Assembly (NCBI GenBank): GCA_947573485.1
Contig: CANPGB010000005.1
Coordinates: 1 to 64,000 of the forward strand
DNA length: 64,000 nucleotides
Source of the DNA: an uncultured Porphyromonadaceae bacterium
Lineage (GTDB): Bacteria; Bacteroidota; Bacteroidia; Bacteroidales; Muribaculaceae
Direction of reading: 5' to 3'
Of the stretch, positions 3,279-54,095 are shown in pieces. Made by a program: the position numbers and the translations under genes. Position 1 is the first letter of the stretch; each line of letters starts with the position of its first letter. A model generated the notes under the pieces. It was not told where the DNA came from. It saw only the letters and a list, made by a program, of their open reading frames with translations, and ran no database searches.

Positions 3279-3280
3279 TG

Positions 3281-32181: not shown

Positions 32182-32213
32182 TTTGTTTTAGAATTTTTTT
32201 TGCCCGAATTTTG
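32182..32213 (+). promoter_or_regulatory. -33/-7 promoter of dnaA
   Basis: TTTG (32182-32185) precedes GAATTTTG (32206-32213, one mismatch to TAnnTTTG) by 20 nt. The leader to the ATG at 32256 would be about 40 nt. Confidence 0.6.
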
Positions 32214-32255
32214 TATCGCAAAATCGGTAAAGCCGATAAGAAACCCTATATATTT

Positions 32256-38572: not shown

Positions 38573-38573
38573 A

Positions 38574-39716: not shown

Positions 39717-39736
39717 ATGATGTCAGGTATAGAGTG

Positions 39737-40243
39737 TTAGTCTTGGGCTAATTGAGCCAGTTTATCTTTAATACGGTGGATACGCACGGCCACATTGCCG
39801 GGTGAGATACCCATGATAAGGCCAATCTCGTTGTATGGTTTTTCGTCGAGCCAAAGCGTTATAAGAGCCTTTTCGAGAGGATTGAGAAGCGAGATCAGGC
39901 GCTGCAGCTCTCGGTATCGTTCAAGTCGTTGCTCGCCCTCGGCACTGTCGCGGGGGTCGATGTTGAGGTCGTCGAGCCTCAGGGTGTCGCTGCCGCCATG
40001 ACGCCCGTTGCGTCTGTGCCAGCTTATACAAGTATTAATCGCTGTACGGTAAATCCACGTCGACATTTTGGAGTCGCCCCGGAAACTGTCAAGGCCCTGC
40101 CATATATTTATCAGCACTTCCTGAAAAAGGTCGTCGAACGGGGATGTCGGCGACGAATAGAGGTAGCACACCTTAGCCACGACATCTTTGTACTCTCTGC
40201 TGATGTCGAGGAAACGCCGTTCCCGTTCTACGTCATTTTTCAT
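39737..40243 (-). CDS. ECF-type RNA polymerase sigma factor
   Basis: 168 aa, sigma-70 region 2 (SSPTSPFDDLFQEVLINIWQGLDSFRGDSKMSTWIYRTAIN) and region 4 (LIMGISPGNVAVRIHRIKDKL) without regions 1 and 3, as in extracytoplasmic-function sigma factors. Binds core RNA polymerase for a stress or envelope regulon. Its presumed regulator is the membrane protein 20 nt downstream. Confidence 0.92.
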   Translation of the reverse strand: MKNDVERERRFLDISREYKDVVAKVCYLYSSPTSPFDDLFQEVLINIWQGLDSFRGDSKMSTWIYRTAINTCISWHRRNGRHGGSDTLRLDDLNIDPRDSAEGEQRLERYRELQRLISLLNPLEKALITLWLDEKPYNEIGLIMGISPGNVAVRIHRIKDKLAQLAQD

Positions 40244-40265
40244 ATCATTTATTAAGACGCAAAAA

Positions 40266-40289
40266 AATCCCGCTTATTACAGCGGGATT
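40266..40289 (-). terminator. Rho-independent terminator after thioredoxin-fold gene
   Basis: AATCCCGC and GCGGGATT form an 8-bp stem with an 8-nt loop. On the minus strand it is followed by a T-run. A weaker T-rich stretch follows on the plus strand. Confidence 0.8.
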
Positions 40290-40329
40290 CATTTTTATGA
40301 AAAAATGTTTCAAAAAAACTTAGGTAACT

Positions 40330-40836
40330 TTACGAAGGCAAAGTGTTTGTGTGCATCAGTGCATCGAGTTCGGCGGGGTCAGGGTCATACGCCACTATTG
40401 TACCTGCGGGGTTGATAAGGACTGAGCCAAAACCTTGGTCGAGCCCGTATTTCTTGGTGGCTTCTATTGCGCGCTCACCCGATATGTGAAATTGCTCGTC
40501 GCTCTCGAGGCTGTCGCGGCGGACAATTTCATTGAAAAGTCCTTGCGAATCATCGAAATTCACACCTACGAGCTGGAGCGGAGCCTCGGGGTGGCGTCGC
40601 TGCCATGCGGTGTAGAGGTTGGCGGCCTGACGCGAGGGAGCGTCGGTCGACGACCAGAAGGTGAGCAGTACGTAGTCGCCACGGAGGCGGTCAAGACTTA
40701 TCAGGCTGTCGGCGGGGTCATAAGCGAGTGCCGGAGCCTGCCTGCCAATTTCGGTAGAGTGGCTGCTCTCGGCGTAACCGCCGGCAAAGAGGAGCACGCC
40801 TATAAAAAGAGCCGCAATTAAAAATGTCTTTTTCAT
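40330..40836 (-). CDS. Secreted thioredoxin-fold protein lacking CxxC
   Basis: 167 aa. A signal peptide or anchor (1-23) is followed by a TlpA/AhpC-like thioredoxin fold: LRGDYVLLTFWSS, GVNFDD, GFGSVLINPAG. The redox motif is missing: where FWxxWCPPCR is expected the sequence is FWSSTDAPSR, so the two cysteines are Asp 65 and Ser 68. It cannot be a normal thiol oxidoreductase and may have a binding role. The ATG at 40836 places the signal sequence at the N-terminus; the reading to 40878 adds atypical residues. Confidence 0.8.
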   Translation of the reverse strand: MKKTFLIAALFIGVLLFAGGYAESSHSTEIGRQAPALAYDPADSLISLDRLRGDYVLLTFWSSTDAPSRQAANLYTAWQRRHPEAPLQLVGVNFDDSQGLFNEIVRRDSLESDEQFHISGERAIEATKKYGLDQGFGSVLINPAGTIVAYDPDPAELDALMHTNTLPS

Positions 40837-40899
40837 GAGTGTATTCCTTTCTGTATAGGAATAACAATCTTGCGGCACCTAAGGTTGGCGGAGCCGGGT

Positions 40900-43362
40900 C
40901 TACACGGGGTCTACGTCGTAGTATACGGTGAGGCCGCGCATCAGTGGCGAGGAACTAAGGGCCACATAGCGCTCACGGAGTATCTCCTTGACTTTCACCA
41001 TCGAGGCTTCACGCTCCATTTTGAGCATTATCTTGCGTATATACATTGCCTGCACACGGCTCACGGCAGGCTCCTGGGGCGGCGATACACGAGCACCGAA
41101 CACTTCGCGCAGCGAGGCGCTGAAGCGTGAGGCACACTCGGCCACGGTGGCGCTGTCGCGGTGCTTGAGATAGATGTTTATTATGCGGGTAAAGGGCGGG
41201 AACCCGAAGGCTCGCCGCTGCTCGAGTTCGTGGCGATAGAACCCCTGGTAGTCATGACCGGTGGCGAAACCAAGTATCGCCGAAGAGGGGTCGTAGGTCT
41301 GGATTACAACTTTGCCGTTGCCATCGCGGCGCCCGGCGCGGCCCGACACCTGCTCTATCATATTGAAAGCGCGCTCGGCCGATCGGAAATCGGGGAAGTT
41401 TATGAGGCTGTCGGCGTTGAGAATACCCACAAGGTCAACATCACCGAAGTCGAGACCCTTCGTCACCATTTGCGTACCGACAAGAATATCGGCGCGATGA
41501 GCCGAGAAATCGTCGATAATCTTGCCATAGCCCTCTTTATTGCGGGTGGTGTCGAGGTCCATGCGCAGCACCTTGCGGTCGCGGAAGTTAGCGTTAATCT
41601 CCTCCTCGAGCCTCTCTGTGCCATAGCCTAAAATTTCGATGGCAGGCTCGTGGCACTCAGGGCACAGCTGCGGCACGGCATACTCCTTGCCGCAGTAGTG
41701 GCACACCAGGCGGTTGGTGCGGCGGTGATATGTGAGCGACACATCGCAGTAGTCGCACTTTGGCGTAAAGGCACACATCTTGCAGCGGGCTACAGGGGCG
41801 TAGCCACGGCGGTTGTGGAAGAGAATAGCCTGGCGCCCGCGGTTCAAGGCGTCGAGGGTAGCGTCGAGAAGGCGGTGCGAGAAGTAGCCGCTCACGGCCT
41901 TACGGCCACGCTGCGCTTTCATATCCACTACTTCGATAGCGGGGAGGGCGGCGTTGCCGTAGCGCTCGGTGAGGCTCACGAGTCCGAATTTGCCTGCGGT
42001 GGCTTTGTAATATGTCTCTACCGTTGGGGTGGCGCTGCCGAAAAGGGTCTTGGCTCCATGCATGGCGGCGAGGACGGCAGCGGCATCGCGACCGTTATAG
42101 CGCGGTGCCGGGTCGAATTGCTTGTAGCTCGACTCATGCTCTTCGTCGACTATCACTATGCCGAGACGCGCGAACGGCAGGAACACCGCCGAGCGGGCGC
42201 CTATAACAACGCAAGGCTCGTCGGCAGCGGCAAGGCGGCGCCATATCTCTACACGCTCGTTATCGGAAAACTTGGAGTGGTAGATAATGACTTTGTCACC
42301 GAAAACTTTCTGAAGCCTGCGGGTAAGCTGTGTGGTGAGAGCAATTTCGGGCACAAGGAAAAGCGCCTGACGCCCTTGCCTGAGCACGTAGTCTATCAGG
42401 TGTATGTATACCTCTGTCTTTCCCGAACCTGTGACGCCGTGCAGCAGCACTATGTCTTTCTCGCGGAACCGGCGGTGTACCGAGTCGAGGGCGGCGGTCT
42501 GCGCCTCGGAGAGTGTCGGCAAGGTGCCACCGGCAGTGCCGTTGAAACTGAAGCGCGACACATCTTTCTTATAGATCGTGCATATACCCTTGTCGGCCAA
42601 CGCCTTGATAATGCTGCGTGTAACACCGGCTTTCTCGGCGAGCACGTCGAGCGGAACTTCGGTAAGAGGAGCGTCGTGCCTGTAGAAGCCGGAGAGAGCC
42701 ACAAGGGCAGTGAGCGCGTCTTCCTGCCGGGAAGAACGGCGCACCGAGGCGTAGGCGCTGTCGAGAGCGGCCTTGTCGGCACGGTCGGCGTTCATGCGCA
42801 CATATTCTTTCTTCACAGCACGGTAGCGCTCCACGAGTTTCTCGCTCACGCAGAGCAAGCCCCTATCGATAAGGCGGGTAACGACGCCTCCCTTGGCACC
42901 GGTCTTGGAGGCGAGCGTATCAAGGGCAACAGTGCCCTCCTGACGCACGAAGTCGAGAACTGCAAGTTCGTCGGGCGAACATGCACCGAAGGCCTCTGCC
43001 TCTATATCGGCTGGGACGCTGACCCTCGTCTCGCTTTCGGGCTTCAGACCCGACGGCAAAGCCGCCTTGAAAACCTCCCCAACGGTGCACAGGTAGTAGT
43101 CGGCAACCCAATGCCAGAAGCGCATCTGCGAAGGCCGAACAACCGGACGCTCATCAGGCGCCGCCGCTATTTCTTTGAGGTTAAGGGCATCGGCAGGCTT
43201 TACGGTGCCCACACTCTCCACCACTCCCGTATAGAAGTGTTTTTTGCCGAAAGGCACTGTCACACGGCTACCGGCCTCTATCTTCCCGGCCAAGGAGTCG
43301 GGCACGATGTAGGTAAAAAGGCCGTGGAGCGGCAGGGGTAATATGACTTGAGCGTATAACAC
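40900..43362 (-). CDS. priA: Primosomal protein N' (helicase PriA)
   Basis: 820 aa. An N-terminal 3'-DNA-binding and winged-helix region precedes a superfamily 2 helicase with Walker A GVTGSGKTEVYIHL and a DEEH box, and a zinc-binding insertion with CKMC...CDYC...CHYC...CPEC cysteines. Restarts stalled replication forks. Full length with all motifs. Ends 37 nt before the thioredoxin-fold gene. Confidence 0.97.
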   Translation of the reverse strand: MLYAQVILPLPLHGLFTYIVPDSLAGKIEAGSRVTVPFGKKHFYTGVVESVGTVKPADALNLKEIAAAPDERPVVRPSQMRFWHWVADYYLCTVGEVFKAALPSGLKPESETRVSVPADIEAEAFGACSPDELAVLDFVRQEGTVALDTLASKTGAKGGVVTRLIDRGLLCVSEKLVERYRAVKKEYVRMNADRADKAALDSAYASVRRSSRQEDALTALVALSGFYRHDAPLTEVPLDVLAEKAGVTRSIIKALADKGICTIYKKDVSRFSFNGTAGGTLPTLSEAQTAALDSVHRRFREKDIVLLHGVTGSGKTEVYIHLIDYVLRQGRQALFLVPEIALTTQLTRRLQKVFGDKVIIYHSKFSDNERVEIWRRLAAADEPCVVIGARSAVFLPFARLGIVIVDEEHESSYKQFDPAPRYNGRDAAAVLAAMHGAKTLFGSATPTVETYYKATAGKFGLVSLTERYGNAALPAIEVVDMKAQRGRKAVSGYFSHRLLDATLDALNRGRQAILFHNRRGYAPVARCKMCAFTPKCDYCDVSLTYHRRTNRLVCHYCGKEYAVPQLCPECHEPAIEILGYGTERLEEEINANFRDRKVLRMDLDTTRNKEGYGKIIDDFSAHRADILVGTQMVTKGLDFGDVDLVGILNADSLINFPDFRSAERAFNMIEQVSGRAGRRDGNGKVVIQTYDPSSAILGFATGHDYQGFYRHELEQRRAFGFPPFTRIINIYLKHRDSATVAECASRFSASLREVFGARVSPPQEPAVSRVQAMYIRKIMLKMEREASMVKVKEILRERYVALSSSPLMRGLTVYYDVDPV

Positions 43363-43379
43363 GGATGGGAGTTTCTTGG

Positions 43380-43436
43380 TTAGGAGTTAGGAGTTAGGGG
43401 TTAGGAGTTAGGAGTTAGGGGTTTCTTGGTTAGGGG
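43380..43436 (+). repeat. TTAGGRG heptamer array, forward
   Basis: Six contiguous 7-nt units (GAG, GAG, GGG, GAG, GAG, GGG types) from 43380 to 43421, then an 8-nt break and another TTAGGGG at 43430. The same unit as at 11873. The word TTTCTTGG occurs just before the array and in the break. Confidence 0.9.
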
Positions 43437-43495
43437 TTATTTGGTAAGGGAGTTGAGAGATAACAGTTGCCGGAGAGGAGTGAAAGAAGAGAAAA

Positions 43496-43551
43496 CTCCT
43501 AACTACTCACCCCGGACTAAAAACTCCTAACCCCTAACTAAAAACCCCTAA
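43496..43551 (-). repeat. TTAGGRG heptamer copies, inverted
   Basis: Reverse-complement units CTCCTAA (43496), CTCCTAA (43524), CCCCTAA (43531) and CCCCTAA (43545), spaced by other sequence. They face the forward array about 60 nt away and could pair with it as a long imperfect hairpin. No gene is seen in the whole 43363-43592 stretch apart from the repeats and the terminator. Confidence 0.85.
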
Positions 43552-43555
43552 CTAA

Positions 43556-43591
43556 AAAAGCGGCCAATCCGATACCGGAAAGGCCGCTTTT
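43556..43591 (-). terminator. Rho-independent terminator of tRNA-His
   Basis: AAAAGCGGCC and GGCCGCTTTT form a 10-bp stem around an inner TCCG/CGGA stem. On the minus strand it ends in a T-run directly after the tRNA. Confidence 0.85.
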
Positions 43592-43592
43592 G

Positions 43593-43667
43593 GGTGCCGA
43601 GTGGGATTCGAACCCACGACCTTCGGAACCACAATCCGACGTTCTAACCAACTGAACTATAGGCACC
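43593..43667 (-). tRNA. tRNA-His (GTG)
   Basis: Minus-strand cloverleaf: the first G of GGTGCC fits the encoded G-1 opposite the discriminator C73, then D-arm, anticodon stem CGGAT with loop TTGTGGT (anticodon GTG), and T-arm GTGGG-TTCGAAT-CCCAC. CCA is not fully encoded. It has its own promoter and terminator. Confidence 0.96.
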
Positions 43668-43683
43668 ATTTCTAAAGGCACTG

Positions 43684-43713
43684 CAAAGGTACGCACTTTT
43701 TTTGAATCTGCAA
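43684..43713 (-). promoter_or_regulatory. -33/-7 promoter of tRNA-His
   Basis: Minus strand: TTG (43713-43711), 19 nt, then TACCTTTG (43691-43684), about 17 nt before the tRNA. Confidence 0.6.
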
Positions 43714-43775
43714 GCGTTCGAGGTATTTTTTTTGTTCAAAATGATAAATTTCCCCAAAAAGACAAAAATAATCGC

Positions 43776-43783
43776 TATTTTTG
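43776..43783 (+). promoter_or_regulatory. -7 promoter motif of gluQRS and locus B, possibly leaderless
   Basis: TATTTTTG ends 4 nt before the gluQRS ATG. With normal spacing, transcription would start at or next to the A of the ATG. Confidence 0.55.
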
Positions 43784-43787
43784 CACC

Positions 43788-44717
43788 ATGAAATCGCCTC
43801 AACGAGAAGTTACGGTGGGCCGCTTCGCCCCCTCGCCTACCGGCCGCATGCACCTCGGCAACGTTTATGCCGCCGTGCTCTCGTGGCTCTCGGCACGAAA
43901 AGCCGGGGGACGCTGGATTCTGCGCATAGAGGATCTGGACCCTCAACGCTCCAAAATTGAATATGCCCGCTTGCTTGAAGACGACCTTCGCTGGCTCGGG
44001 CTCGATTGGGACGAGGGCGGCCTCGACGGCAAAGGGCCTGCGGCGCCCTACTGCCAAAGCGAGCGCTCCTATATATATAAGGAGTACTATTCAAAACTCG
44101 AAGCATTGGGCCTCACTTACCGCTGCCACTGCCGCCGCGCCGATATTCTTGCATCGCAGGCGCCTCACCAGTCCGACGGCCGTGTGGTGTATGCAGGCAC
44201 GTGCCGTCCTGCCTCTGCCCCACCCTTCGCCGCCTCTGCCGACCAAAGCGGCGCGATCCGCCTTTATGTGCCCGACAGCGAAATTGTGTTCACCGACCGC
44301 GTGTATGGCAGGCAATGTGTAAACCTCGCCCGCGAATGCGGCGACTTCATCATTTGCCGCGCCGACGGCGTATGGGCCTACCAACTTGCTGTGGTGGCCG
44401 ACGATGCCGCAATGGGTGTGACCGAGGTTGTTCGCGGTGCCGACCTCCTGCTCTCTGCAGCCCAGCAAATATACCTCTACGGGCTGCTCGGCTTGACACC
44501 TCCCGAGCATGCGCACCTTCCTCTACTGTGCAACGAGGCCGGGAAGCGCCTCTCGAAGCGCGACGGTTCGCTTGCAATGGATGCGCTTCGCCTGTCGCGC
44601 AAACCCGAGGATATTCTCGGCATGGTGGCCGGTCTCGCAGGCATAACTCCCGGGCAGGACGCCATTTCTCTGGCCGAGCTCCTCTCTGAATTTTCATGGG
44701 ATAAAATCAAAGTATAA
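43788..44717 (+). CDS. gluQRS: Glutamyl-Q tRNA(Asp) synthetase
   Basis: 309 aa, the truncated GluRS paralogue without an anticodon-binding domain. The HIGH-type motif is FAPSPTGRMHLGN (13-25) and the KMSKS-type motif is LSKRDGS. Zinc-site cysteines are visible in YRCHCRRAD. It glutamylates queuosine in tRNA-Asp. Its TAA overlaps the first base of locus B (TAATG), so locus B may be transcribed with it. Confidence 0.94.
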   Translation: MKSPQREVTVGRFAPSPTGRMHLGNVYAAVLSWLSARKAGGRWILRIEDLDPQRSKIEYARLLEDDLRWLGLDWDEGGLDGKGPAAPYCQSERSYIYKEYYSKLEALGLTYRCHCRRADILASQAPHQSDGRVVYAGTCRPASAPPFAASADQSGAIRLYVPDSEIVFTDRVYGRQCVNLARECGDFIICRADGVWAYQLAVVADDAAMGVTEVVRGADLLLSAAQQIYLYGLLGLTPPEHAHLPLLCNEAGKRLSKRDGSLAMDALRLSRKPEDILGMVAGLAGITPGQDAISLAELLSEFSWDKIKV

Positions 44718-45004
44718 TGGATAAATACACTCCTCACCCCGCCGATACCTCGGGTATTGAGTTACCCGCCGAGCTCGAAGCCTTGGCCGAAGACATGGCC
44801 CGCAACGTGCATGAGGTATGGGCTGCCTCACGCATAGCGCAGGGCTGGACCAAAGGGCCGCGCAACGACGAGCTTAAACAGACTCCCTGCCTCGTGCCCT
44901 ACGACGAACTCGATGAGACTGAGCGCGACTACGACCGCCACACTTCGCAGGAGACCCTCAAATACATCTTGAAACTCGGCTTTAAAATAAGCAAGGAGCA
45001 ATGA
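44717..45004 (+). CDS. Locus B: stand-alone RyR domain protein
   Basis: 95 aa and almost entirely one RyR domain: ARNVHEVWAASRIAQGWTKGPRNDELK followed by CLVPYDELDETERDYDR and a C-terminal helix. RyR repeats are found in ryanodine receptors and in bacterial signalling proteins; the ligand in bacteria is not established. Starts at the gluQRS stop (TAATG) and overlaps the TIR gene by ATGA, so it is the first gene of locus B. Confidence 0.9.
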   Translation: MDKYTPHPADTSGIELPAELEALAEDMARNVHEVWAASRIAQGWTKGPRNDELKQTPCLVPYDELDETERDYDRHTSQETLKYILKLGFKISKEQ

Positions 45005-46116
45005 GCAGAATCGACCCCGAAGCACCGTATACCAACTATGCTTTCATAAGCTACAGCCACCGCGACATGGCCACGGCCAAGTGGTTGCAGCGGCGCCTCG
45101 AAGGCTATAGGCTCCCCACCGAGATTCATAACGAGCTCGACGATTCACGCTACTTGCGGCCTATCTTCCGCGACCAGACCGACCTCAACACTGGCGTCCT
45201 CACGAGTGTGCTGCGCCGTCAGCTCGAGCGCAGCAAGTTCCTCATACTCATTTGCTCGGCAAATTCCGCAGCCTCGGCATGGGTCAGTGCCGAAGCCCGC
45301 GCCTTTGTCGAAATGGGGCGCCTCGACCGCATAATTCCCGTAATACTGCCCTCTAAAGACATTCCCGAGCCTGAGCTATTTCCCGAGTTTCTCCGCAATT
45401 ATTTCAAGGAGAATCCCGGCACCGAGCTTTTAGGGGTCAACATAGGCGAGGTAGGCAAAGAGAAAGCCCTGGTGCGGGTGGTGTCGCGCATGCTCGATGT
45501 GGAGTTCGACAAGCTGTGGAACCGCCACGAGCGTATGCGACGCCGCCGCTTAGCACTCACGGCATGCGGCGCTGCCTTAATAGCAGGAGCGACTTACCTC
45601 TTTGCCTGGCCCGTGGCGCTAACTGTAGCAATCGAGCCTCATAGTTCCGGTCTGCCCGAGCCTGCGACTCTGACCCTCAATGTAAACGGTGCCGACTATG
45701 AAGCGCCCTTTTCGTCGCCCGTATTCAACGATTTGCGTCTGCCGGGCTACTTCCGCTTCAAAACTGTGGCTATTAAAGCTTCGGCAAACTATTTTACGCC
45801 TGCCGATACAACCATCAGCGCCGGTTGGGGCACGCATGCACGCGTAGCTCTGCCGCTCAGGCGCGACGACTCTTTCGCCCGCTACGAAGGCACGGTGTAT
45901 ACGAGCGATATGCAAGCTCTTGAAGGAGTGAATGTTGAACTTGCCGGAGAGTCGCAGTTCACCGACAGTCTCGGGCACTTCGCCTTCACTCTGCCCGTGG
46001 AGCGGCAGCGGGTTGAATTGCCCATAATTCTGAGCAAAGAAGGCTACGTGAGCGTAAGCCGCGACGATGAGGTGCCGGGCTCTGACTTGCGTTTTATAAT
46101 GCACGAAATTCGGTAG
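45001..46116 (+). CDS. Locus B: TIR - TM - beta-sandwich protein
   Basis: 371 aa. TIR domain at 10-130 (YAFISYSHRD; candidate catalytic Glu 98 in SAWVSAEARAF), a charged linker, one membrane helix (184-204), then an extracytoplasmic region of about 165 residues with a carboxypeptidase-regulatory-like fold (YEGTVYTSDMQALEGVNVELAG). Topology matches the locus A TIR protein but with a different outer domain. TIR domains of this kind may consume NAD+ or make a nucleotide signal. Couples to the RyR gene by ATGA. Confidence 0.85.
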   Translation: MSRIDPEAPYTNYAFISYSHRDMATAKWLQRRLEGYRLPTEIHNELDDSRYLRPIFRDQTDLNTGVLTSVLRRQLERSKFLILICSANSAASAWVSAEARAFVEMGRLDRIIPVILPSKDIPEPELFPEFLRNYFKENPGTELLGVNIGEVGKEKALVRVVSRMLDVEFDKLWNRHERMRRRRLALTACGAALIAGATYLFAWPVALTVAIEPHSSGLPEPATLTLNVNGADYEAPFSSPVFNDLRLPGYFRFKTVAIKASANYFTPADTTISAGWGTHARVALPLRRDDSFARYEGTVYTSDMQALEGVNVELAGESQFTDSLGHFAFTLPVERQRVELPIILSKEGYVSVSRDDEVPGSDLRFIMHEIR

Positions 46117-46132
46117 TTTCGTAAAAATTCGC

Positions 46133-46140
46133 TAACTTTG
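46133..46140 (+). promoter_or_regulatory. Internal -7 promoter motif in locus B
   Basis: TAACTTTG lies in the only gap between the first genes, 18 nt before the ATG at 46159. The -33 element is weak. It may give the rest of locus B a second promoter. Confidence 0.45.
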
Positions 46141-46158
46141 AGCGAAACTAAAGTAAAA

Positions 46159-47292
46159 ATGACAGCAAACTCTCCATATGGCAGCCTTGTGCCTTTCGTT
46201 GTTCCCGGCCTCGAGAACTTCGCTTTCGAAGGCGCACCTTTAGGCTATGACGCCGACGCGCGCGTTCACCTGCTGATAGCGGGGGACTCCGGTCGTGTGC
46301 GCGAACTTGCCATGTTTGCAGCCCTCTCATGCCACTACCCTAACTATGAGCGTGATAATCGCCTGCGCACACGCATAAGCATAGTGTGCGGGCGCAGCGA
46401 CGCCGAGGATTTGCGTTTTGAGTTCGCCGAACTCTTCGACAACTCGTGGTGGCGCAGCGTCGACCTCTCCGGCAACGCCCCCGCAGTTACCGTGCATGCC
46501 CCTCTCTACCACGGGCGCCGCGCCGATTTCACCGACATCGAGTGGGAGTTTATCGAGGGGCGGCTGTCGAACCCCTTGCTTCAACAGAAAATCAAGCTAT
46601 GGGCCGCAGATCCGCGCCAACGTTTCACTGTTGCCCTCTGCTACGATGACGCCTCACGCAACCTCAATCTCGGCGCCCGCATAGCCTCGCGCCTGGGCTG
46701 CAGGGTTATCGCCGACGCGCCCGAAAGCGCTCCCGGAGTGCATGCTTATGGCCGATGCGCCGATGCCGAAGCCTTGGTAAGCCGCTATATGGCCATGGCC
46801 CGTTACCTCAATTATTTCTACGAAGCATCTTACAATCTCGGCGCAGCCCCCGTTGAGTTGCCCGAAGATAAAGTCGAGGCCGCCTGGGCCAAGGTCGCCG
46901 CTCCCGAGCTGCAGTTATCCAATATATATAATGTGATGACCATGCCGTGCAAGATGCGCACGCTCGGCCACGACCGCTCGCAGTGGGATACCTTCTATGC
47001 CGTGTCGGCCCGCGAGACCGAGGCCCTCGCCGCCACCGAGCACAACCGTTGGAGCGTTGAGCGCCTTATCCAGGGTACCCGCCCCTGCACCGATGCCGAG
47101 CGAGAGGCTGTCATGGCCGACATTTCATTAAAAAAGAAATATAAGAAGGAGCGCAACGCCCACTTCGACCTTGTAGCTTTCGACGAGCTCGGAGTCGACG
47201 AAACCGGGCTGCCTGTAGAGCGCTACGACCGCGCTCTGATTGCCGCAATACCTCTTATAGTAAGTACTTATAACAACCGCAGGCATGAATAA
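46159..47292 (+). CDS. Locus B: Rossmann-like / RyR protein
   Basis: 377 aa, no membrane helix. Residues about 25-270 align with the second Rossmann-like half of the locus A protein (VHLLIAGDSGRVREL against VHLIIIGMSKTG; DIEWEFIEG against DIDFEFIEG). The C-terminus is an RyR domain (about 288-372; ATEHNRWSVERLIQGTRP, HFDLVAFDEL, YDRALIAAIPLIV). The ATG at 46159 was chosen; an in-frame TTG at 46138 is inside the promoter motif. Overlaps the FHA gene by 8 nt. Confidence 0.82.
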   Translation: MTANSPYGSLVPFVVPGLENFAFEGAPLGYDADARVHLLIAGDSGRVRELAMFAALSCHYPNYERDNRLRTRISIVCGRSDAEDLRFEFAELFDNSWWRSVDLSGNAPAVTVHAPLYHGRRADFTDIEWEFIEGRLSNPLLQQKIKLWAADPRQRFTVALCYDDASRNLNLGARIASRLGCRVIADAPESAPGVHAYGRCADAEALVSRYMAMARYLNYFYEASYNLGAAPVELPEDKVEAAWAKVAAPELQLSNIYNVMTMPCKMRTLGHDRSQWDTFYAVSARETEALAATEHNRWSVERLIQGTRPCTDAEREAVMADISLKKKYKKERNAHFDLVAFDELGVDETGLPVERYDRALIAAIPLIVSTYNNRRHE

Positions 47293-48568
47293 GCACTATA
47301 CCCTGAGCTCAAGGGGCGGCATAGTGAGCCTGCCTGCGACCCGCGCGGCCTTCATAGGGCAGACGGCAGGCTGCGATGTGCGCGTCCCCGACTGCGAGCC
47401 CTATGCTCCTGCGGTTCTCGCCCGTGTGGAGGCGGCCTCAGAAGGCGGGGAGTGGAGACTTGTGCGCCTCTCACCCCACGCTTCGATTGCCGTCAACGGT
47501 CGCAAACTAAACCGTGTGCACTACCTCGCCGACGGCGACACCATTGAGGCTGACAATTACCTGATTCGCTTCAATATACGTGAAGGCGAACTCGCCCACA
47601 GTACCGTGACACCGCCTGGCGACCGTCGCCTCCAGACTTTTGTAGTGCTGCTCATAGCGCTCGTGATTGCAGCCGGAACATGGATGTGGCTCTCGGCCGA
47701 CCGCTCACAACTTTCCGAGGACGAGCTCGCCACAGCCATGGCATCGCTCGTCAAAATAGAAGTCGACTCGCTCTGCCTCATGGAGGTCGACAGCATAATC
47801 GACACCTATGTATATCCTTCGCGCCCCGTAGGCACGGCCTTCCTCACGAGCGACTCACTGCTCGTCACCGCCCGCCACTGCGTGCAGCCGTGGCTCAACG
47901 CCGTCAACCCCATGGCCGTTAGAGAGGTGCCATTTTTGGCAGACCGCCCCGTGGCTATGGCTCTGCGTGCCGAGACGGCCAACCAATTCGAAGGCAGCGA
48001 ACGCCTGTCGCTTGTGAGTCACCTTACTCTCACCGCCCACAATGGTTCGCGGAGCACTGCCACCTCACGCGATTTCAGAATTGACACGAGTCGCGACGAA
48101 ATTATCGAGCTCGGCGATTACGACAACGATTTCTGGTGGCGCAGTGTGGCACGGCGCTACGGGAGAGCCGACATGATGCTTGGCGACGTGGCAGTAATGG
48201 CTGCCGACAACGCCGGAAGCATTGTGCTCGCCGACAGTCTTTTCATCGCCACAGAGCTGCGGCCGCGTACAACCCTCACCTTCCTCGGCTTCCCCATGAG
48301 CGAGGGCGAAGGCGAAGTGGCCGAAGCCGAGCGCGATGAGCTCCGGCAGCCTCTCGCGCACACCGACGGCGGCGAGCTCTTCATGCTTGCCCATGGCGGA
48401 GCTCTCTCGCCTGGATACTCCGGGGGGCCTGTGCTCGTCAAGGACGGTGCCGTCGTGCGCGCCGTTGGCGTAGTGTCGGTTCTCGACCTCCGCAACGGTC
48501 ACCGCTCATATTCTGTTCCCGTCACCACGCTTAAAAATCTGAAAACCGATGAAGATTCACAGCGGTAA
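47285..48568 (+). CDS. Locus B: FHA - TM - trypsin-like protease
   Basis: 427 aa. N-terminal FHA domain (about 8-100; FIGQTAGCDVRV, then NGRKLNR) predicted to bind phosphothreonine in the cytoplasm, a membrane helix (116-137), then a chymotrypsin/trypsin-like domain predicted in the periplasm. The triad is visible: H198 (TARHC), D301 (LGDVAVM) and S379 (GYSGGP). It could turn a cytoplasmic phosphorylation signal into periplasmic proteolysis. Overlaps the pseudokinase gene by 20 nt. Confidence 0.87.
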   Translation: MNKHYTLSSRGGIVSLPATRAAFIGQTAGCDVRVPDCEPYAPAVLARVEAASEGGEWRLVRLSPHASIAVNGRKLNRVHYLADGDTIEADNYLIRFNIREGELAHSTVTPPGDRRLQTFVVLLIALVIAAGTWMWLSADRSQLSEDELATAMASLVKIEVDSLCLMEVDSIIDTYVYPSRPVGTAFLTSDSLLVTARHCVQPWLNAVNPMAVREVPFLADRPVAMALRAETANQFEGSERLSLVSHLTLTAHNGSRSTATSRDFRIDTSRDEIIELGDYDNDFWWRSVARRYGRADMMLGDVAVMAADNAGSIVLADSLFIATELRPRTTLTFLGFPMSEGEGEVAEAERDELRQPLAHTDGGELFMLAHGGALSPGYSGGPVLVKDGAVVRAVGVVSVLDLRNGHRSYSVPVTTLKNLKTDEDSQR

Positions 48569-49169
48569 GAAATATACGGTAGCCGTGCGCTGCGACCGCG
48601 GCAACATGTTAGCGGTGAAAACCGCGGACGACGGCTCGGAGCGCACCATGACCTACTACCCCGAGCGCGACACCTCGGCTATAGCGGGCGAGCTCGACGA
48701 GGCAGGTGCGTGGCGCCTCCTTGCCGACATCGAGCCCGGCGACACCCCCGTTTCGCCCTCACATATTTTTATCGACGGCGACGGCTTTGTACTTTCGCCA
48801 TGGTCAGCGAGTCACGATCCGCGCTTCACAGCCCCCGAAGGCTATGAGCCTGTGTGGGCTCTCGGTGCCACGGTGTTTTACCTCGTGCTCGGCACTCATG
48901 TTTTTGGTAGTCGGGGCGGCAAGGGTCAAAGCGCCACGAGCCCCGTGCCCGTAATGCGTGCTTCGTGTGCAGACCTTAGCAAACTCGTGGCCCGTTGTCT
49001 GAGTTTCAACCCCTCAGAGCGCCCTACCCTCTCCGAAATCAAAGAAATTGCAACCGACAATCTGAGGCGCATCGCGGCACTGCCGCCTGTGGCACGCCCC
49101 TTGAAGTCGGCACCCGTATCTCTGACCCCTGATTCACTCTCCGAATTATGGCCCGAAGAAATTTATTGA
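48549..49169 (+). CDS. Locus B: small pseudokinase
   Basis: 206 aa with the C-lobe pattern of Ser/Thr protein kinases: an APE-like TAPE (94-97), PVWALGATVFYLVLG (101-115) in helix F, and CLSFNPSERPTLSEI (150-164). The N-lobe is reduced, the catalytic HRD loop is missing (VSPSHIFIDGDG is where it should be) and DFG reads SPW (83-85). Hence a probable pseudokinase, perhaps a scaffold for the FHA protein encoded just upstream. Soluble. Overlaps its neighbours on both sides by about 20 nt. Confidence 0.75.
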   Translation: MKIHSGKKYTVAVRCDRGNMLAVKTADDGSERTMTYYPERDTSAIAGELDEAGAWRLLADIEPGDTPVSPSHIFIDGDGFVLSPWSASHDPRFTAPEGYEPVWALGATVFYLVLGTHVFGSRGGKGQSATSPVPVMRASCADLSKLVARCLSFNPSERPTLSEIKEIATDNLRRIAALPPVARPLKSAPVSLTPDSLSELWPEEIY

Positions 49170-49774
49170 TATTCCTGCTCAGCCTCTGCGTCACCCTTCC
49201 CTGCCTCGGTCAAAGCGCCGACGTGGAACTGCAGAAGCTCGTCGACATAGTAAAATCGCTGCGCGGCGGCTCCGCTGCTTTTGCCGAAGCCACCGCCGTG
49301 CTGGCATCAGACCCCGCATGGACGCCCATGAACGAGCTGCGAGCCGCCGATGCCTCGGCAGAGTGCCGCGCTTCCGACAAGGTGCCGGGCTTCCGTCTCA
49401 ACAAGCTCCTTGCCGCCTCCGAACAGGCGCAACGCTTCGAGACATCGACCGGAAACATGCTGAACGGCGAGGACGCCCGCTTCAACTATTCCCTTTTCGA
49501 GCGCGGCATAAAAGCCGGAGCCACAGCCGTCTACACCCTGCGTGGCCGCGAGGGCGCACAAACCTTCGTGATTCTGCCCTACGACGGTGGCAGCGGCTCT
49601 TTCGCCGCCACCATAAGCTGCGGTGGAGTACCTTTTGAAGTCAAGGAGTATACCGACGGCTCCCTTGTATTCACAGGCAATGTCGCAAGCGGCCAACCGC
49701 TTACCCTCTCAATCGCGAACACCTCCGGGCGCAATATCTCTTTCGCTATCCTCAACCACAACTCCCGCCGATGA
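49148..49774 (+). CDS. Locus B: secreted protein with beta-rich C-terminus
   Basis: 208 aa. Signal peptide (1-22, ending CLGQS), helical N-terminal half, beta-rich C-terminal half (about 115-205) resembling the locus A protein at 29104. No known family recognised. The start overlaps the pseudokinase gene by 22 nt and the stop overlaps the CHAT gene by ATGA. Predicted periplasmic; a partner of the extracytoplasmic modules is inferred. Confidence 0.75.
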   Translation: MARRNLLIFLLSLCVTLPCLGQSADVELQKLVDIVKSLRGGSAAFAEATAVLASDPAWTPMNELRAADASAECRASDKVPGFRLNKLLAASEQAQRFETSTGNMLNGEDARFNYSLFERGIKAGATAVYTLRGREGAQTFVILPYDGGSGSFAATISCGGVPFEVKEYTDGSLVFTGNVASGQPLTLSIANTSGRNISFAILNHNSRR

Positions 49775-51897
49775 ACCGCCTCCTCACTCTCCTCGTTCTC
49801 GTTCTCTGCACCCTTGGCGCCGCTGCCCACCCACTGCTCGATTCCCTTGTAACGCAGGGCAACCGCGCTTATCTCTACAGTCGCCGCGATATTATCCTTG
49901 ACTGCGCCCGCGGGCTGCAGGAGGCGATCCCCGTCTATGCTTCATCGACGCGCGATTCTCTCGAATACACCTCGGCAATGTTCAAGCTCTTCGGCAATTA
50001 CCATTACGAGAACGCGTCGCTCGACCCTGCATCTTTTGCCAAAGCGGCCTGCTACTACGACAGCGCCGCCTCTCTCAACGCACAGCGCCTCTCCACCGGG
50101 CACCTCCTTTTCCAGGAGAAAGCGCAACTCAACTACCGGCTCGAAAACTACAGCCAAGCTCTTGCCGATATCGACAAGGCCATAGACTACATCGACCAAT
50201 CGGGCATCTACGAGCCCGGCGACACCGAGTGGAATAACCTTGCCATGCAGCGCGCGATGTGCCTGGCGCGCACCAGTCGCTTTGACGAAGCCATAGCTCT
50301 TGCCGATGCTACCGTCGCCGAGTATATCGACAGCTCCTCGCTCGACTATGCCCGCGCCCTGCGCATGAAAGCCAAGATTTTGGCTCTCGCCACCCAACGC
50401 CCTGCCGATGCCCTGGAGGCCTACAAAAAGTATTTTTCCACCCAGCGGGCTTTTGCCAACGAGTGCTTCCTGAATATGGACAGCCGTGCCCGCGAGCAAT
50501 ACTGGCTCACTCTCCGCCCATTCCTTGCCGACTGCTATATGCTCGGCGACACCGACCCGGCGTTCCTCTACGATGTCACGCTTTTTATCAAAGGGCTGCT
50601 GCTTCACCTCACAAGCGTTTCGGGTTCGGGACCTGCCTCTGCCAACGCTCTCAGAGCGCTCTCTTACACCTGGCGCGACATACAAAGCAAACTCAAGCCC
50701 GGCGATGTGGCTATAGAGTTTATAAGTCCCGGCGACCCGACCGACCCGGGCATGGGCGCCCTTGTGCTTAAAGATAAGGGCACGCCTGCCTACGTGCCTC
50801 TGAGCTCCCCTGCAGAGGTCGCCGAGGTGGCAGGAAAGGCCTTGGAATCGACAAGCAGGCGCGACAAGGACGCCCTTTACACCTCGGCCGCGCTCGACAC
50901 CGCCGTTTGGCGCCCGGCGCTCCTGGGGCAACTCGCAGGAGCCAAACGCATTTACTTCGCCCCCGAGGGCTACATACACCGGCTTGCCATTGAATACCTT
51001 CCCTCTGTAAGCCACCTCGACATGTACAGGCTCAGCTCCACGCGGCGCCTAATGGAGCCTCCACGCGAGTTGAGCGCTGCAGCTCCGGCACTACTCTGCG
51101 GCGGCATAGACTACAGCTCGCCGAAAGTGGGGGCCGACCCTGCCGCCAACGACCCCGAAGCCTTTGCCAACTACCGCGGCACACGCTTCGCGCGTCTCTC
51201 GCAGGAGTCCGACGAATCACGTAAAATCCACAATCTCCGAGGCAATAACGCCGACAGCGTTCTGCGTGGAGCCGCAGCCTCAGAATCGGCCTTCCGCGCC
51301 CTTGCGCCACGGTTCGGCAATATTTTGGTATCGACGCACGGAGATTTCAAGGCGCGAGCTGCTGCGGTGCCCAACGACCTGAAACCCACACTCGACGACG
51401 ACGCCATGTCGCGCGGCATTATAGCTTTTGCAGGAGTGAATCCGCACCTTGCAGACCCTAAGTTCGATGCCACACACTGCGACGGCCTTCTCTCGGCACG
51501 TGAGGTGGCAGAGCTCGACCTCTCGCAGTGCAATCTTTTTACCCTCTCGGCATGCCAGACGGCCTTGGGGCAAATAGGCCCCGATGGCGTCGTTGGCCTG
51601 CGCCGAGGTCTTAAAAATGCCGGTGCCGGAGCCCTGCTCCTGAGCCTGTGGAACGTTAACAGCGATGCCACGGCTCTGCTCATGGAGCGCTTCTACGCCG
51701 GGCTTGCCGAGGGCCTTGGCATACACCGCGCTTTCGTTGCCGCCCGCCGCCACCTGCTCGACATGACTGCCGGCGAAACGCGCAGCGTGCAGCGCTTCAA
51801 CCCCGCCACCATGGCCGAAGAGACGGTCACCGAGACCGCGCCCGTATTCTCGGCACCGCAGTTCGCCAACGCCTTTATCCTCATCGACGCTATCTGA
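49771..51897 (+). CDS. Locus B: secreted TPR-CHAT protease
   Basis: 708 aa. Signal peptide (1-19, ending GAAAHP), TPR-like helical repeats (about 25-300) and a C-terminal CHAT (caspase-like) domain (about 310-700). The catalytic dyad is present: H523 in STHGDF and C595 in TLSACQTALG, with the typical GVVGLRRGLKNAGAGALLLSLWNV and HRAFVAARRHLLD segments. CHAT proteases in bacteria are usually cytosolic; the signal sequence here predicts a periplasmic one. ATGA-coupled to the secreted protein upstream. Confidence 0.88.
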   Translation: MNRLLTLLVLVLCTLGAAAHPLLDSLVTQGNRAYLYSRRDIILDCARGLQEAIPVYASSTRDSLEYTSAMFKLFGNYHYENASLDPASFAKAACYYDSAASLNAQRLSTGHLLFQEKAQLNYRLENYSQALADIDKAIDYIDQSGIYEPGDTEWNNLAMQRAMCLARTSRFDEAIALADATVAEYIDSSSLDYARALRMKAKILALATQRPADALEAYKKYFSTQRAFANECFLNMDSRAREQYWLTLRPFLADCYMLGDTDPAFLYDVTLFIKGLLLHLTSVSGSGPASANALRALSYTWRDIQSKLKPGDVAIEFISPGDPTDPGMGALVLKDKGTPAYVPLSSPAEVAEVAGKALESTSRRDKDALYTSAALDTAVWRPALLGQLAGAKRIYFAPEGYIHRLAIEYLPSVSHLDMYRLSSTRRLMEPPRELSAAAPALLCGGIDYSSPKVGADPAANDPEAFANYRGTRFARLSQESDESRKIHNLRGNNADSVLRGAAASESAFRALAPRFGNILVSTHGDFKARAAAVPNDLKPTLDDDAMSRGIIAFAGVNPHLADPKFDATHCDGLLSAREVAELDLSQCNLFTLSACQTALGQIGPDGVVGLRRGLKNAGAGALLLSLWNVNSDATALLMERFYAGLAEGLGIHRAFVAARRHLLDMTAGETRSVQRFNPATMAEETVTETAPVFSAPQFANAFILIDAI

Positions 51898-51941
51898 AAA
51901 ACCATTTCCATACCTTATAAAGCTCTTTTATACTTCAAGTT

Positions 51942-53249
51942 ATGAAAATCAAATCAGCTCTTTTCTCATTTCTTGCCTTTAGCTTATCGTTACAGCCCGC
52001 AGTTGCTCAGGCGCCCCACGGAGGTGTGCCCGTTGACTCGTGGCAGGTAAGCGTACGCCAGATGAACCCCGACATGCGCGACCGCATCACCGATACCATG
52101 CAGGAGCTCGACGGCTCCGACCAGGACCGCGGCCTTATTGCCGAAATCGGGCAGGCGGCAGGCTTCGGACTCGTTGCAAGCGCCGTCGATATTATTGTAA
52201 GCGAGACTTTCAACCTCGCCCAGATGCGTAAGAAACAGAAGCGCGAATGGATGCAGATGATTGAGCGCGAGAACAATTACACCGACAGCATCAGCTCTAT
52301 CAAAGGTCTGCGCGACTTCTACAACGCGCCCTCGACACGCGGTGCCCTCGACCCCTCGGACATCAACTTCGACGGCATAGAAATACGCGGCATACGCAAC
52401 GGTCGCGAGGTGATATACATGTCGTGCTCGATAGACCGCACCAAGCTCGACAACCTCTTCCGCCACTCCAAGTTCAACCTCGTGATTGACACGCTCGCCT
52501 TCTACCCCTACCAGTGCCACCTGCCCAACGTAGCCGCCAACGGCATACGCATCATGAACGACATCAAGAAGGGGAAGGCCGAACTGCAGGGCGACTCCAT
52601 AGTGCGCCCGGGCAACGGCGGCAACGGGTTCTCTTTCGACGAGCGCAAGAACCTCAACGTTGGCATCGACTTCACAATCACCTCCTCGTGGATCAACGAG
52701 GCCGTGCAGGTACACAAAGATGTGGAGCTCGGGCGCTTCAAGTTCAACATCGCCATACCCGACAATGCCATGATGTACACTTACTCGCGCAAAGACGTCG
52801 ACTCCCGCGCCACCGCCATTGCCGATGAAGCTCAGCGCGAGCAGTTTCTCGCCGCCAACCTCCTGCCCGTTGAGGGCGATTGCTTTGTGGTGCCCCGCTC
52901 ATACATGCCTCTGGCAAGCGGTCGCCGTCTGTGGGGTACCGGCGAATATAATATAAAGGTCAAGGTGCGCGAGAGCTGCCGCTTCGACACCGAGAGCGAT
53001 AAAGCCAAGCATTGGCGCGACGACTACAAACGCCTCCGCAAAATGCAGAACCGCAGCGGCGAAGTGCGCGAATACTTCCAGACGCTTTGGAATCAGAACG
53101 GCCTCAATCTCGTCAAGCAATCCTACAAGACCGTGCTCAACACGGGCCTCTCGCACTACGGTCTCACAGCCCAGGGAGCCGCAGCCAACGCAGCAGCAAA
53201 AGCAGCCGCTGCCAAAGCCGCTGCCGCCAAACCACAGCCACAGCCTTGA
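51942..53249 (+). CDS. Locus B: secreted protein of unknown family
   Basis: 435 aa. Signal peptide (1-22, ending VAQAPH), helical region (about 40-125) including a hydrophobic patch AAGFGLVASAVDIIV, a mainly beta central part (about 140-340), a basic helical segment (about 345-400) and an Ala/Lys low-complexity tail ending PQPQP. No enzyme motif recognised. It follows the CHAT gene by 44 nt in the same direction, so it may be the last gene of locus B. Assignment to the system is by position only. Confidence 0.75.
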   Translation: MKIKSALFSFLAFSLSLQPAVAQAPHGGVPVDSWQVSVRQMNPDMRDRITDTMQELDGSDQDRGLIAEIGQAAGFGLVASAVDIIVSETFNLAQMRKKQKREWMQMIERENNYTDSISSIKGLRDFYNAPSTRGALDPSDINFDGIEIRGIRNGREVIYMSCSIDRTKLDNLFRHSKFNLVIDTLAFYPYQCHLPNVAANGIRIMNDIKKGKAELQGDSIVRPGNGGNGFSFDERKNLNVGIDFTITSSWINEAVQVHKDVELGRFKFNIAIPDNAMMYTYSRKDVDSRATAIADEAQREQFLAANLLPVEGDCFVVPRSYMPLASGRRLWGTGEYNIKVKVRESCRFDTESDKAKHWRDDYKRLRKMQNRSGEVREYFQTLWNQNGLNLVKQSYKTVLNTGLSHYGLTAQGAAANAAAKAAAAKAAAAKPQPQP

Positions 53250-53396: not shown

Positions 53397-54095
53397 ATGA
53401 TTAAAGCCGCCCTCGAGAAAGTTATAAATGAAGATATGGCCGAGATATGGTCGATACTCACGCCCGATGAAAAGCGCATAGTGGCCGACAATCTTCAGAT
53501 TCATTCTTTCAAGAAGAACCAGCTCATCTACGCCGAGGGCGACGAGCCTGAATACCTTTGGTGCCTCTTCAAGGGCAAGGTAAAGAAGACCAAGGAAGGT
53601 GTTGGTGGTCGTGTTCAGATTCTGCGCCTCATACGCCCTGTGCAGTACTTCGGCTACCGCGCGTTTTTCGCCGGTGAGCCCTACGTGTCGAGCGCCGAAG
53701 CTTTCGAGCCCTCGACCCTCGGAGCAATACCTCTCGAGGTTGTGCGCGACCTGATACAGAACAATATAAAGCTTGCGTGGTTCTTTATCCACGAACTCTC
53801 GCGCAACCTCGGCGGCTCCGACACCAAGATTGTGAACCTCACTCAGAAGCACATCCGCGGCCGTCTTGCCGAAGCTCTCATAGTGCTACTCGACAACTAC
53901 GGCTACGAGGACGACAACTGCACGCTCAAGATTTATATGGCGCGTGAAGACCTCGCCAACCTCTCGAATATGACAACGTCGAACGCAATTCGCACCCTCT
54001 CGGCTTTTGTCAACGAGCGCATCCTCCTTGTCGACGGCAGGCGCATAAAGATTATAAACGAGAGCGTGCTGCGCAAGATAAGCAAATTCGGATAA
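53397..54095 (+). CDS. Crp/Fnr-family transcription regulator
   Basis: 232 aa. cNMP-binding beta-roll (about 15-125; YAEGDEPEYLWCLFKGKVK), dimerisation helix and a C-terminal winged helix-turn-helix (about 170-225; REDLANLSNMTTSNAIRTLSAFVNERIL). No Fnr-type cysteine cluster at the N-terminus. It has its own promoter and terminator. The regulated genes are not evident from context. Confidence 0.92.
   Translation: MIKAALEKVINEDMAEIWSILTPDEKRIVADNLQIHSFKKNQLIYAEGDEPEYLWCLFKGKVKKTKEGVGGRVQILRLIRPVQYFGYRAFFAGEPYVSSAEAFEPSTLGAIPLEVVRDLIQNNIKLAWFFIHELSRNLGGSDTKIVNLTQKHIRGRLAEALIVLLDNYGYEDDNCTLKIYMAREDLANLSNMTTSNAIRTLSAFVNERILLVDGRRIKIINESVLRKISKFG

Follow-up and report, generated by a model that had tools for sequence, protein, structure and literature searches.

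Our data reveal a conserved, apparently unnamed signalling cassette of six genes in a locus of a gut bacterium, at positions 44717-53249 of the window, the 64,000-nucleotide stretch of DNA analysed here (G000:C5:1-64000, part of a 2.88 Mb genome of an uncultured Porphyromonadaceae bacterium). The locus, hereafter locus B, comprises eight genes, labelled B1 to B8 in order; the genes of a second locus in the window, locus A, are labelled A1 to A3, and L and G numbers denote the loci and genomes compared. B3 to B8 almost certainly act as one functional unit, and we tentatively explain locus B as a TIR-driven signalling relay spanning the cell envelope, most likely an abortive defence against phages or other invaders. 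A sequence-only reading had proposed a single system with cytoplasmic sensing and periplasmic proteolysis. The synteny, the catalytic residues and the transmembrane (TM) helix of B4 support that view, but the sensing is better read as nucleotide signalling, which had not been proposed.

Conservation of the cassette

A search with B3 among 247 genomes of the family gave matches in 25 genomes, and 20 regions were fetched. The order B3-B4-B5-B6-B7-B8 is the same in six other genomes of the family (with the window, 7 of 247); here the B6 genes of L036 and L037 were placed by position and alignment, and the B8 gene of L035 by sequence reading and a profile. In L034 a fragment resembling the end of B2 lies directly upstream of B3, at the contig edge. 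The rest of the B3 matches in the family are longer, mostly membrane-bound relatives of locus A. A B3-profile scan of named genomes added 68 loci, titled as groups of Bacteroidales, Bacteroidia or Bacteroidetes (Candidatus Minthenecus belonging to Bacteroidales); they come largely from metagenome assemblies of the rumen and gut, and also from Prevotella sp. tf2-5 and Bacteroides ilei. Among the 69 loci, window included, a strong B3 is present in 61 and the cassette, scored as a strong B3 with B4 among the next two picked genes, in 56; L059, counted without B4 among the five strong-B3 exceptions, carries a B4 match of 406 bits. Raw matches of at least 50 bits over the 69 loci number 58 for B4, 56 for B5, 55 for B6, 54 for B7 and 41 for B8, with profiles built partly from copies of the same loci. 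The locus counts are not independent, since a number of contigs are short and a number of loci nearly duplicate one another.

The genes also diverge together. Distance matrices of B3, B4, B7 and B8 in the 39 loci with all four correlate at r 0.78-0.94, a level that 0 of 1000 permutations reach for each of the six pairs (no species-tree control). The profile search for synteny in related genomes that had been suggested as a check returned the genes as a cassette and not scattered, with a strong B3 followed by B4 in 56 of the 69 loci. Given the recurrence of B3 to B8 in one order in six family genomes and dozens of Bacteroidales loci, the arrangement is not due to chance. From these comparisons B3-B8 is a conserved six-gene unit, to which B1 and B2 appear to be joined as an interchangeable input module. 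A fixed eight-gene system is rejected, since B1 and B2 vary among cassette loci; these two and any other TIR or RyR gene are absent from the spans of the two same-genus cassettes. What had been described as one system of eight genes is thus narrowed to B3-B8, which are syntenic and diverge together.

In the order Bacteroidales the B3 profile matches 32 of 393 genomes, many of locus-A type by open-frame length. A sample of the phylum gave matches in 6 of 395 genomes, strong only in the window's genome and weak and partial in the five others; with this single strong match a wide distribution in the phylum is rejected.

The membrane relay: B4, B5 and B6

Signal peptides and TM helices were assigned throughout from hydropathy or by eye. 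In B4, Pfam finds Trypsin_2 (E 4e-7) and, below the cut-off, FHA (E 0.07); a TM helix lies between the FHA and protease domains, by hydropathy in relatives. The trypsin residues H198, D301 (taken as catalytic) and S379 are kept in 57 of 57 B4 proteins. Phosphopeptide-binding FHA domains have a conserved phosphate-binding Arg after the first Gly (Gly-Arg). This residue is Arg in 0 of the 57 B4 proteins (Gln in 39, Glu in 12, others in 6), and because the Gly-Arg arginine is lost the B4 FHA domain is probably no phospho-sensor, contrary to its earlier description as a sensor or binding module.

B5 matches only a C-lobe fragment of Pkinase in Pfam, below the cut-off (E 1e-3). Active Ser/Thr protein kinases carry HRD and DFG motifs, and a motif scan found neither in the B5 of the window. 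Under loose patterns both motifs occur in two of 56 B5 proteins, those of L060 (HGDVK, DFG) and L062 (LGDLG and DLG in one stretch, probably by chance). The L060 relative (positions 2974-3727 of that locus) has the only believable kinase-like forms among the 56, which suggests descent of B5 from an active kinase. That the FHA domain senses phosphorylation by the pseudokinase is rejected, as both are without the needed residues.

In 22 other loci B5 and B6 are fused into one protein with a hydrophobic helix between them, from which it follows that B5 would lie inside and B6 outside the inner membrane, as one working unit. Together with the TM helix between the two B4 domains, these fusions add a physical link to the earlier proposal that the system spans the envelope. 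The C-terminal part of B6 is homologous to A3 (hhalign 93%, E 3e-7); among solved structures B6 gave two profile matches only, at E 0.57 and 0.60.

The CHAT protease B7 and its partner B8

B7 matches CHAT in Pfam at E 4e-38, with the TPRs below the cut-off. Its catalytic His523 is kept in all 62 proteins, which include second copies from some loci, and Cys595 in 60 of the 62, the other two having gaps; the catalytic residues are intact in both the B4 and the B7 family, in agreement with the protease modules named from the sequence alone. Profiles of B7 and B8 found no relative among solved structures.

B8 is present in 14 of the 247 family genomes, seven with the cassette and seven others. In six of the seven non-cassette loci (L215, L216, L217, L219, L220, L221) it adjoins a B7-type CHAT gene without the relay genes; no such gene was found next to B8 in L218. 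Aligned position 63 of B8 is Arg in 40 of 47 proteins (overall Arg content 5%), is followed by Gly or Ser in 43 of 47, and directly precedes a Gly/Ala/Ser-rich, weakly hydrophobic segment. We infer that B8 is a partner or substrate of the CHAT protease, with a predicted cut site at Arg63.

B3, the RyR-like domain and locus A

B3 had been described as a Rossmann-RyR protein; its RyR part is below the Pfam threshold, and the assignment rests on profile comparison and on homology to locus-A proteins. B3 is homologous to A1, which gives tblastn scores of 42-113 bits against six B3 relatives. Compared with a family of RyR membrane proteins beside cassettes, of which three of seven members pass Pfam RyR, B3 scores 94.9% in hhalign (E 4.6e-8) over the Rossmann and RyR parts, and an 8-sequence profile with A1 included gives P 3e-5 and 73% against the RyR family. 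A RyR-like domain in B3 is likely, and B3 looks like a pore-less paralogue of the locus A channel. No relative of B3 among solved structures was found by profile. In the window B3 has a short form of 384 amino acids, and many relatives have about 480-540.

The predicted ligand residues are strongly conserved, H302, W305 and H342 in 46 of 46 B3 proteins and D364 in 45 of 46. According to the accessible part of a 2026 preprint, phage RyR proteins bind or hydrolyse the cyclic ADP-ribose molecules 2'cADPR and 3'cADPR via H75, W78, H100 and D117, and the animal RyR R12 domain binds adenine ligands (PMC13232231). The spacing of the phage residues (+3/+25/+42) is also that of the B1 family, as read from the alignment.

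The 15 aligned locus-A-type proteins combine Rossmann/RCK parts with a C-terminal RyR-like domain and, by hydropathy, two TM helices; the four ligand residues are invariant in them (15/15). Among solved structures their profile matches a RyR1 chimera construct (E 9e-9), the TM plus RCK part of the BK channel (1e-4), the bacterial RyR structure 3nrt (1e-3), a TrkA-domain channel (1e-3), DMI1 (2e-3) and CASTOR (3e-3); at E 0.1 or better, Pfam recognises Slo-like_RCK in 8 of 15 and RyR in 3 of 15. Locus A is cleanly absent from G032, because homologues of the flanking window genes 25521 and 29818 stand 68 bp apart there. Of the two loci, locus A is possibly the more striking.

B1, B2 and the association with TIR genes

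B1 scores 116.8 bits against PF02026 (cut-off 27.4), and a profile of B1 with nine relatives matches RyR1-3 and 3nrt. In the alignment it keeps three of the four ligand residues of the phage RyR proteins, named RyDEP (H32, W35, D73). B2 matches TIR_2 in Pfam (E 7e-13), ThsB_TIR above the cut-off and CarboxypepD_reg below it (E 3.5e-4), and has one TM helix by hydropathy. The WVxxE motif is kept in B2 and A2, and its glutamate is presumably the catalytic TIR glutamate.

A profile grown from B2 and A2 detected TIR genes within the fetched spans of cassette loci: in 29 of 56 loci, or 28 of 55 if the window is left out, and in 21 within the same gene run. The spans hold 41 TIR genes in 1.07 Mb, whereas the frequency in the window's genome, with 6 Pfam TIR_2 matches over 2.88 Mb, would predict about 2.2; the two counts used different TIR profiles. 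At other loci the forms include TIR-TM, TIR-FGE and SIR2-TIR beside nSTAND1, and some inputs are RyR membrane proteins instead.

A sample that does not depend on B3 was obtained by searching one set of 295 genomes of the class for both RyR and TIR. RyR matches occur in five genomes, four of them over the cut-off, and TIR matches in only 72. In three of the four (G000, G629, G659) a TIR gene stands about 0.05, 2.1 and 4.5 kb from the RyR gene; as G000 is the window itself, this leaves two of three. The fourth, G267, has no TIR match and an RCK-RyR channel gene beside RyR. The fifth, G1250, with RyR below the cut-off, has no TIR_2 match, but 1.5 kb downstream it carries a DUF4062 gene (E 4e-18). 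According to the available part of a 2026 report (PMC13174449), DUF4062 domains are TIR-like NADases of an antiphage system. DUF4062 proteins are also direct neighbours of the L046 RyR channel and occur close to the L043 one, and the association of RyR may extend beyond classical TIR domains. The DUF4062 genes near RyR or RyR-channel genes are at L228 7466-10225, L046 6371-13404 and L043 1401-8715.

Two further arrangements were observed. In G659 (L227 4477-9524) a 1112-amino-acid TIR-WD40 protein is followed 23 nt later by a 561-amino-acid TrkA_N-RyR protein with a hydrophobic start, a candidate for a minimal pair of TIR and RyR-channel genes in another family of the class. At L074 16243-17737 and L085 518-1997, and also in L042, L043 and L045, a sigma-factor-like gene (weak Pfam match in L074, by eye elsewhere) stands beside a protein of 300-330 amino acids ending in a RyR domain, the RyR tail not being detected in L043; such pairs are a possible transcriptional output of the same signal.

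Layout and setting of locus B

The open reading frame lists place eight plus-strand genes exactly on 44717-53249 (Table 1). B1/B2 overlap by 4 nt, B3/B4 by 8, B4/B5 by 20, B5/B6 by 22 and B6/B7 by 4, while B2/B3 are 21 nt and B7/B8 44 nt apart; five of seven junctions overlap by 4-22 nt, so the mostly overlapping, same-direction layout first described is confirmed by the coordinates. Of the gene identities given with it, Pfam recovers RyR (B1), TIR (B2), Trypsin_2 (B4) and CHAT (B7), while the FHA and kinase matches stay below the cut-off; B3, B6 and B8 have no significant Pfam family.

Table 1. Coordinates in the window of locus B, of two segments within it and of locus A
Feature	Position	Strand	Description
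B1	44717..45004	+	Stand-alone RyR (R12) domain protein, 95 amino acids; Pfam PF02026 E 5e-34
B2	45001..46116	+	TIR, one TM helix, outer CarboxypepD_reg-like beta domain; 371 amino acids
B3	46138..47292	+	Cytoplasmic Rossmann protein with likely C-terminal RyR-like domain; 384 amino acids
B3 RyR-like segment	47017..47265	+	Residues 294-376; range of profile alignment
B4	47285..48568	+	Degenerate FHA (cytoplasm), TM helix, trypsin-like serine protease (periplasm); 427 amino acids
B5	48549..49169	+	Pseudokinase fragment; 206 amino acids
B6	49148..49774	+	Beta protein, secreted or membrane-tethered; 208 amino acids
B7	49771..51897	+	Signal peptide, TPR, CHAT protease; 708 amino acids
B8	51942..53249	+	Secreted protein without recognised fold; 435 amino acids
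B8 Arg63 codon	52128..52130	+	Conserved Arg, candidate cleavage site
Locus A	25590-29742		A1, 2TM-RCK-RyR channel-like protein; A2, TIR-TM-FGE protein; A3, secreted protein related to B6

The start of B1 shares 1 nt with the end of the gene upstream. The flanking genes, named by eye and recall, we take to be a glutamyl-Q tRNA synthetase-type gene (gluQ, 43788-44717) and a Crp/Fnr-type gene (53397-54095). Locus B is absent from G032, which has no B3 or B8 match and whose gluQ is the most similar to that of the window (77%). There a dnaA-type gene (window 32211-33656) follows gluQ within about 0.1 kb, and Crp lies across an inverted block that ends in gluQ. Because this block is inverted and gluQ and Crp are not neighbours in G032, the comparison with an empty site is not clean. 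In the window the block, which ends in priA- and gluQ-type genes (names by eye), occupies 39147-44717; its two junctions are marked by locus B on one side and by Rnf complex genes (34248-39143) on the other.

PADLOC and NCBIfam scans of the eight proteins gave weak, partial matches only and no named system; on these grounds a system known to either collection is rejected. The sequence-only reading knew of no named defence or stress system with this gene set, and none was matched in Pfam, PADLOC, NCBIfam or the open-access papers searched, most of them judged by title and start of abstract; TIR-RyR neighbourhoods may have been mentioned earlier. A term search did not find 'RyR' in eLife 52696 or eLife 70394.

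A proposed mechanism and its rivals

The relay proposed for locus B draws its sequence-based parts from the genes and their domains, the conserved residues, the synteny and correlated divergence, the B5-B6 fusions, the B7-B8 pairing and the TIR/RyR association. In this scheme B2, anchored in the membrane with its beta domain outside the inner membrane, would when triggered turn NAD+ into an ADP-ribose (ADPR)-type messenger. The RyR-like domain of the cytoplasmic B3 would bind the messenger, B3 resembling the locus A RCK-RyR channel without its pore, and B3 would act on two presumed non-phospho docking modules, the degenerate FHA domain of B4 and pseudokinase B5. Activation of the trypsin-like protease in the periplasm would then pass through the B4 TM helix and the B5/B6 pair, followed by that of the TPR-CHAT protease B7, also periplasmic. 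B7, B4 or both may cut B8, probably after Arg63, and free a Gly/Ala-rich segment with a possible action on a membrane, while B1 might bind or destroy the messenger and so set a threshold. We consider it somewhat probable that an ADPR-type nucleotide, sensed by RyR domains, drives the cassette, and lean in about equal measure towards a role in defence; the order from trypsin to CHAT to B8 is doubtful.

A number of observations weigh against this explanation. Some concern the RyR domains: only 1 of 46 B3 proteins reaches E 0.1 or better with Pfam RyR (E 0.075), a 46-sequence profile compared with the RyR family gives 2.5% and E 0.018, and native RyR1 structures match the locus-A-type profile at E 0.04 only. 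Because the 8- and 46-sequence comparisons disagree, the RyR assignment of B3 is likely and not certain. In B1, Thr56 replaces the phosphate-contacting His, so that one ligand residue is missing; Thr stands at this second-His position also in two of nine other aligned relatives (L042, L045). On the TIR side, the fetched span shows no TIR gene for 27 of 56 cassette loci, the two same-genus relatives among them (contig ends truncate some of the spans), and the loose WVxxE pattern is matched by only 24 of 47 TIR proteins of these loci, some perhaps by chance. The Gly/Ala-rich segment of B8 is weak in hydropathy, with a best 19-residue mean of 0.52-1.79. B7-B8 pairs occur without B3-B6, and part of the cassette may therefore have a housekeeping role. 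Finally, the PADLOC matches are as weak as stated, locus B lies between genes also present in the window's relatives, and there are no relatives of B3 in viral contigs and none of B4 or B8 in plasmids. Cargo of a prophage or plasmid is rejected on these last absences (a phage collection was not searched).

The same absences, and the six B7-B8 pairs that stand without relay genes, would fit a system for surveillance or repair of envelope damage. Here the outer domains of B2 and B6 would sense stress of the envelope or outer membrane, the periplasmic proteases would process B8 as a quality-control substrate, and TIR and RyR would only modulate; outer domains of the TIR proteins that vary, beta in B2 and FGE in others, are also in keeping with it. 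Co-located immune-type modules (TIR, SIR2-TIR, nSTAND1) and a patchy presence, with the cassette in 7 of 247 family genomes, are however unusual for stress housekeeping, and we consider this explanation unlikely.

Alternatively, TIR and RyR might be scaffolds or NAD(P)-linked metabolic sensors with no messenger made, B3 reading ATP, NAD+ or ADPR directly and gating the proteases by energy state. The relation of B3 to RCK-bearing Rossmann proteins agrees with this idea, as do the adenine ligands of animal RyR R12 in the accessible part of PMC13232231 and the 27 cassette loci with no TIR in the fetched span. It accounts poorly for the glutamate motif retained in B2 and A2 and for the proximity of RyR genes to TIR or TIR-like genes in the sample drawn independently of B3, and has in our view a rather small chance of being correct. 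A response to other bacteria or to host contact would have outer sensors for secreted toxins, lectin ligands or host peptides, periplasmic proteases to destroy proteins as they enter, and TIR as a self-limiting alarm. We consider it improbable: secreted proteases, outer sensor domains, a mainly gut and rumen group and the description of FGE, in the accessible part of PMC10907252, as a subtype of C-type-lectin folds proposed as invasion sensors are in its favour, but no recognised cassette gene resembles an immunity or delivery gene.

Comparison with known systems

The proposed TIR-driven relay resembles Thoeris, in which the product of a TIR cyclase, a cADPR isomer or His-ADPR, activates a nucleotide-gated effector; its closest forms are type IV, which has a caspase-like protease, and type II, whose effector is of the TM-macro kind. 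Both place a TIR enzyme in one locus with a nucleotide-binding effector or receptor (a putative one in locus B); also shared are a protease output as in type IV (PMC12847820, as far as accessible), and in B2 the TIR_2 and ThsB_TIR matches above cut-off with WVxxE kept. In locus B, however, the receptor would be RyR-like, the proteases are predicted to be periplasmic, and a membrane relay would stand between them and the receptor. TIR is the sole Thoeris family matched: no ThsA-type effector (SIR2-SLOG, TM-macro or cytosolic caspase-like) was found among the eight proteins with Pfam, PADLOC and NCBIfam, and the caspase-clan protease of locus B is a CHAT protein with a signal peptide.

The RyDEP phage proteins share Pfam PF02026, the ligand residues and the predicted ADPR-type ligand, but as described in the accessible part of PMC13232231 they serve phage counter-defence, whereas the RyR domains of loci A and B are bacterial, lie beside TIR genes and are fused to RCK channel-like or Rossmann proteins. 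Craspase (CASP) likewise pairs a TPR-CHAT protease, Csx29, with a dedicated partner, its substrate Csx30 (accessible part of PMC10028731); B7 and B8 differ in carrying signal peptides, by eye, and neither Cas7-11 and Csx30 of this type III-E CRISPR system nor any CRISPR gene was matched among the eight proteins in Pfam and NCBIfam. In the nuclease-protease pairs of defence loci (PMC12799240, available in part) a trypsin-like protease activates its partner, but that partner is a metallo-beta-lactamase (MBL)-fold nuclease, while locus B has no matched nuclease and its protease lies beyond a TM helix. Membrane serine proteases of the MarP type also tether a trypsin-like protease, and B4 has a weak NCBIfam match to MarP (E 0.009), with 15 bits against a cut-off of 250. 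An FHA protein paired with a pseudokinase is known from FhaA and the MviN pseudokinase (PMC12599244, accessible in part), but the FHA arginine is lost in locus B.

Implications

We put forward with some reserve, as a possible wider picture, that RyR domains would be the bacteria's own receptors for TIR-made ADP-ribose messengers, with two outputs of one ancestor. In locus A an RCK-type channel would be gated by its RyR tail, a possible counterpart of the ryanodine-receptor/TIR-calcium axis, and in locus B a pore-less receptor would signal via the pseudokinase/FHA relay to a periplasmic cascade of two proteases. If true, this would supply the host side of the phage finding, bacterial RyR proteins being possible targets of the TIR messengers that phage RyR proteins destroy or soak up. 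Within TIR-nucleotide signalling, both the receptor and the compartment of the output would be new: an immune signal would be relayed from the cytoplasm to the periplasm by proteolysis, giving the cell a new route from an internal alarm to damage or repair at its own envelope. The old question of whether RyR domains bind cADPR-type nucleotides, and why, would become testable in a bacterial protein of 95 residues and in small two-gene units of TIR plus RCK-RyR.

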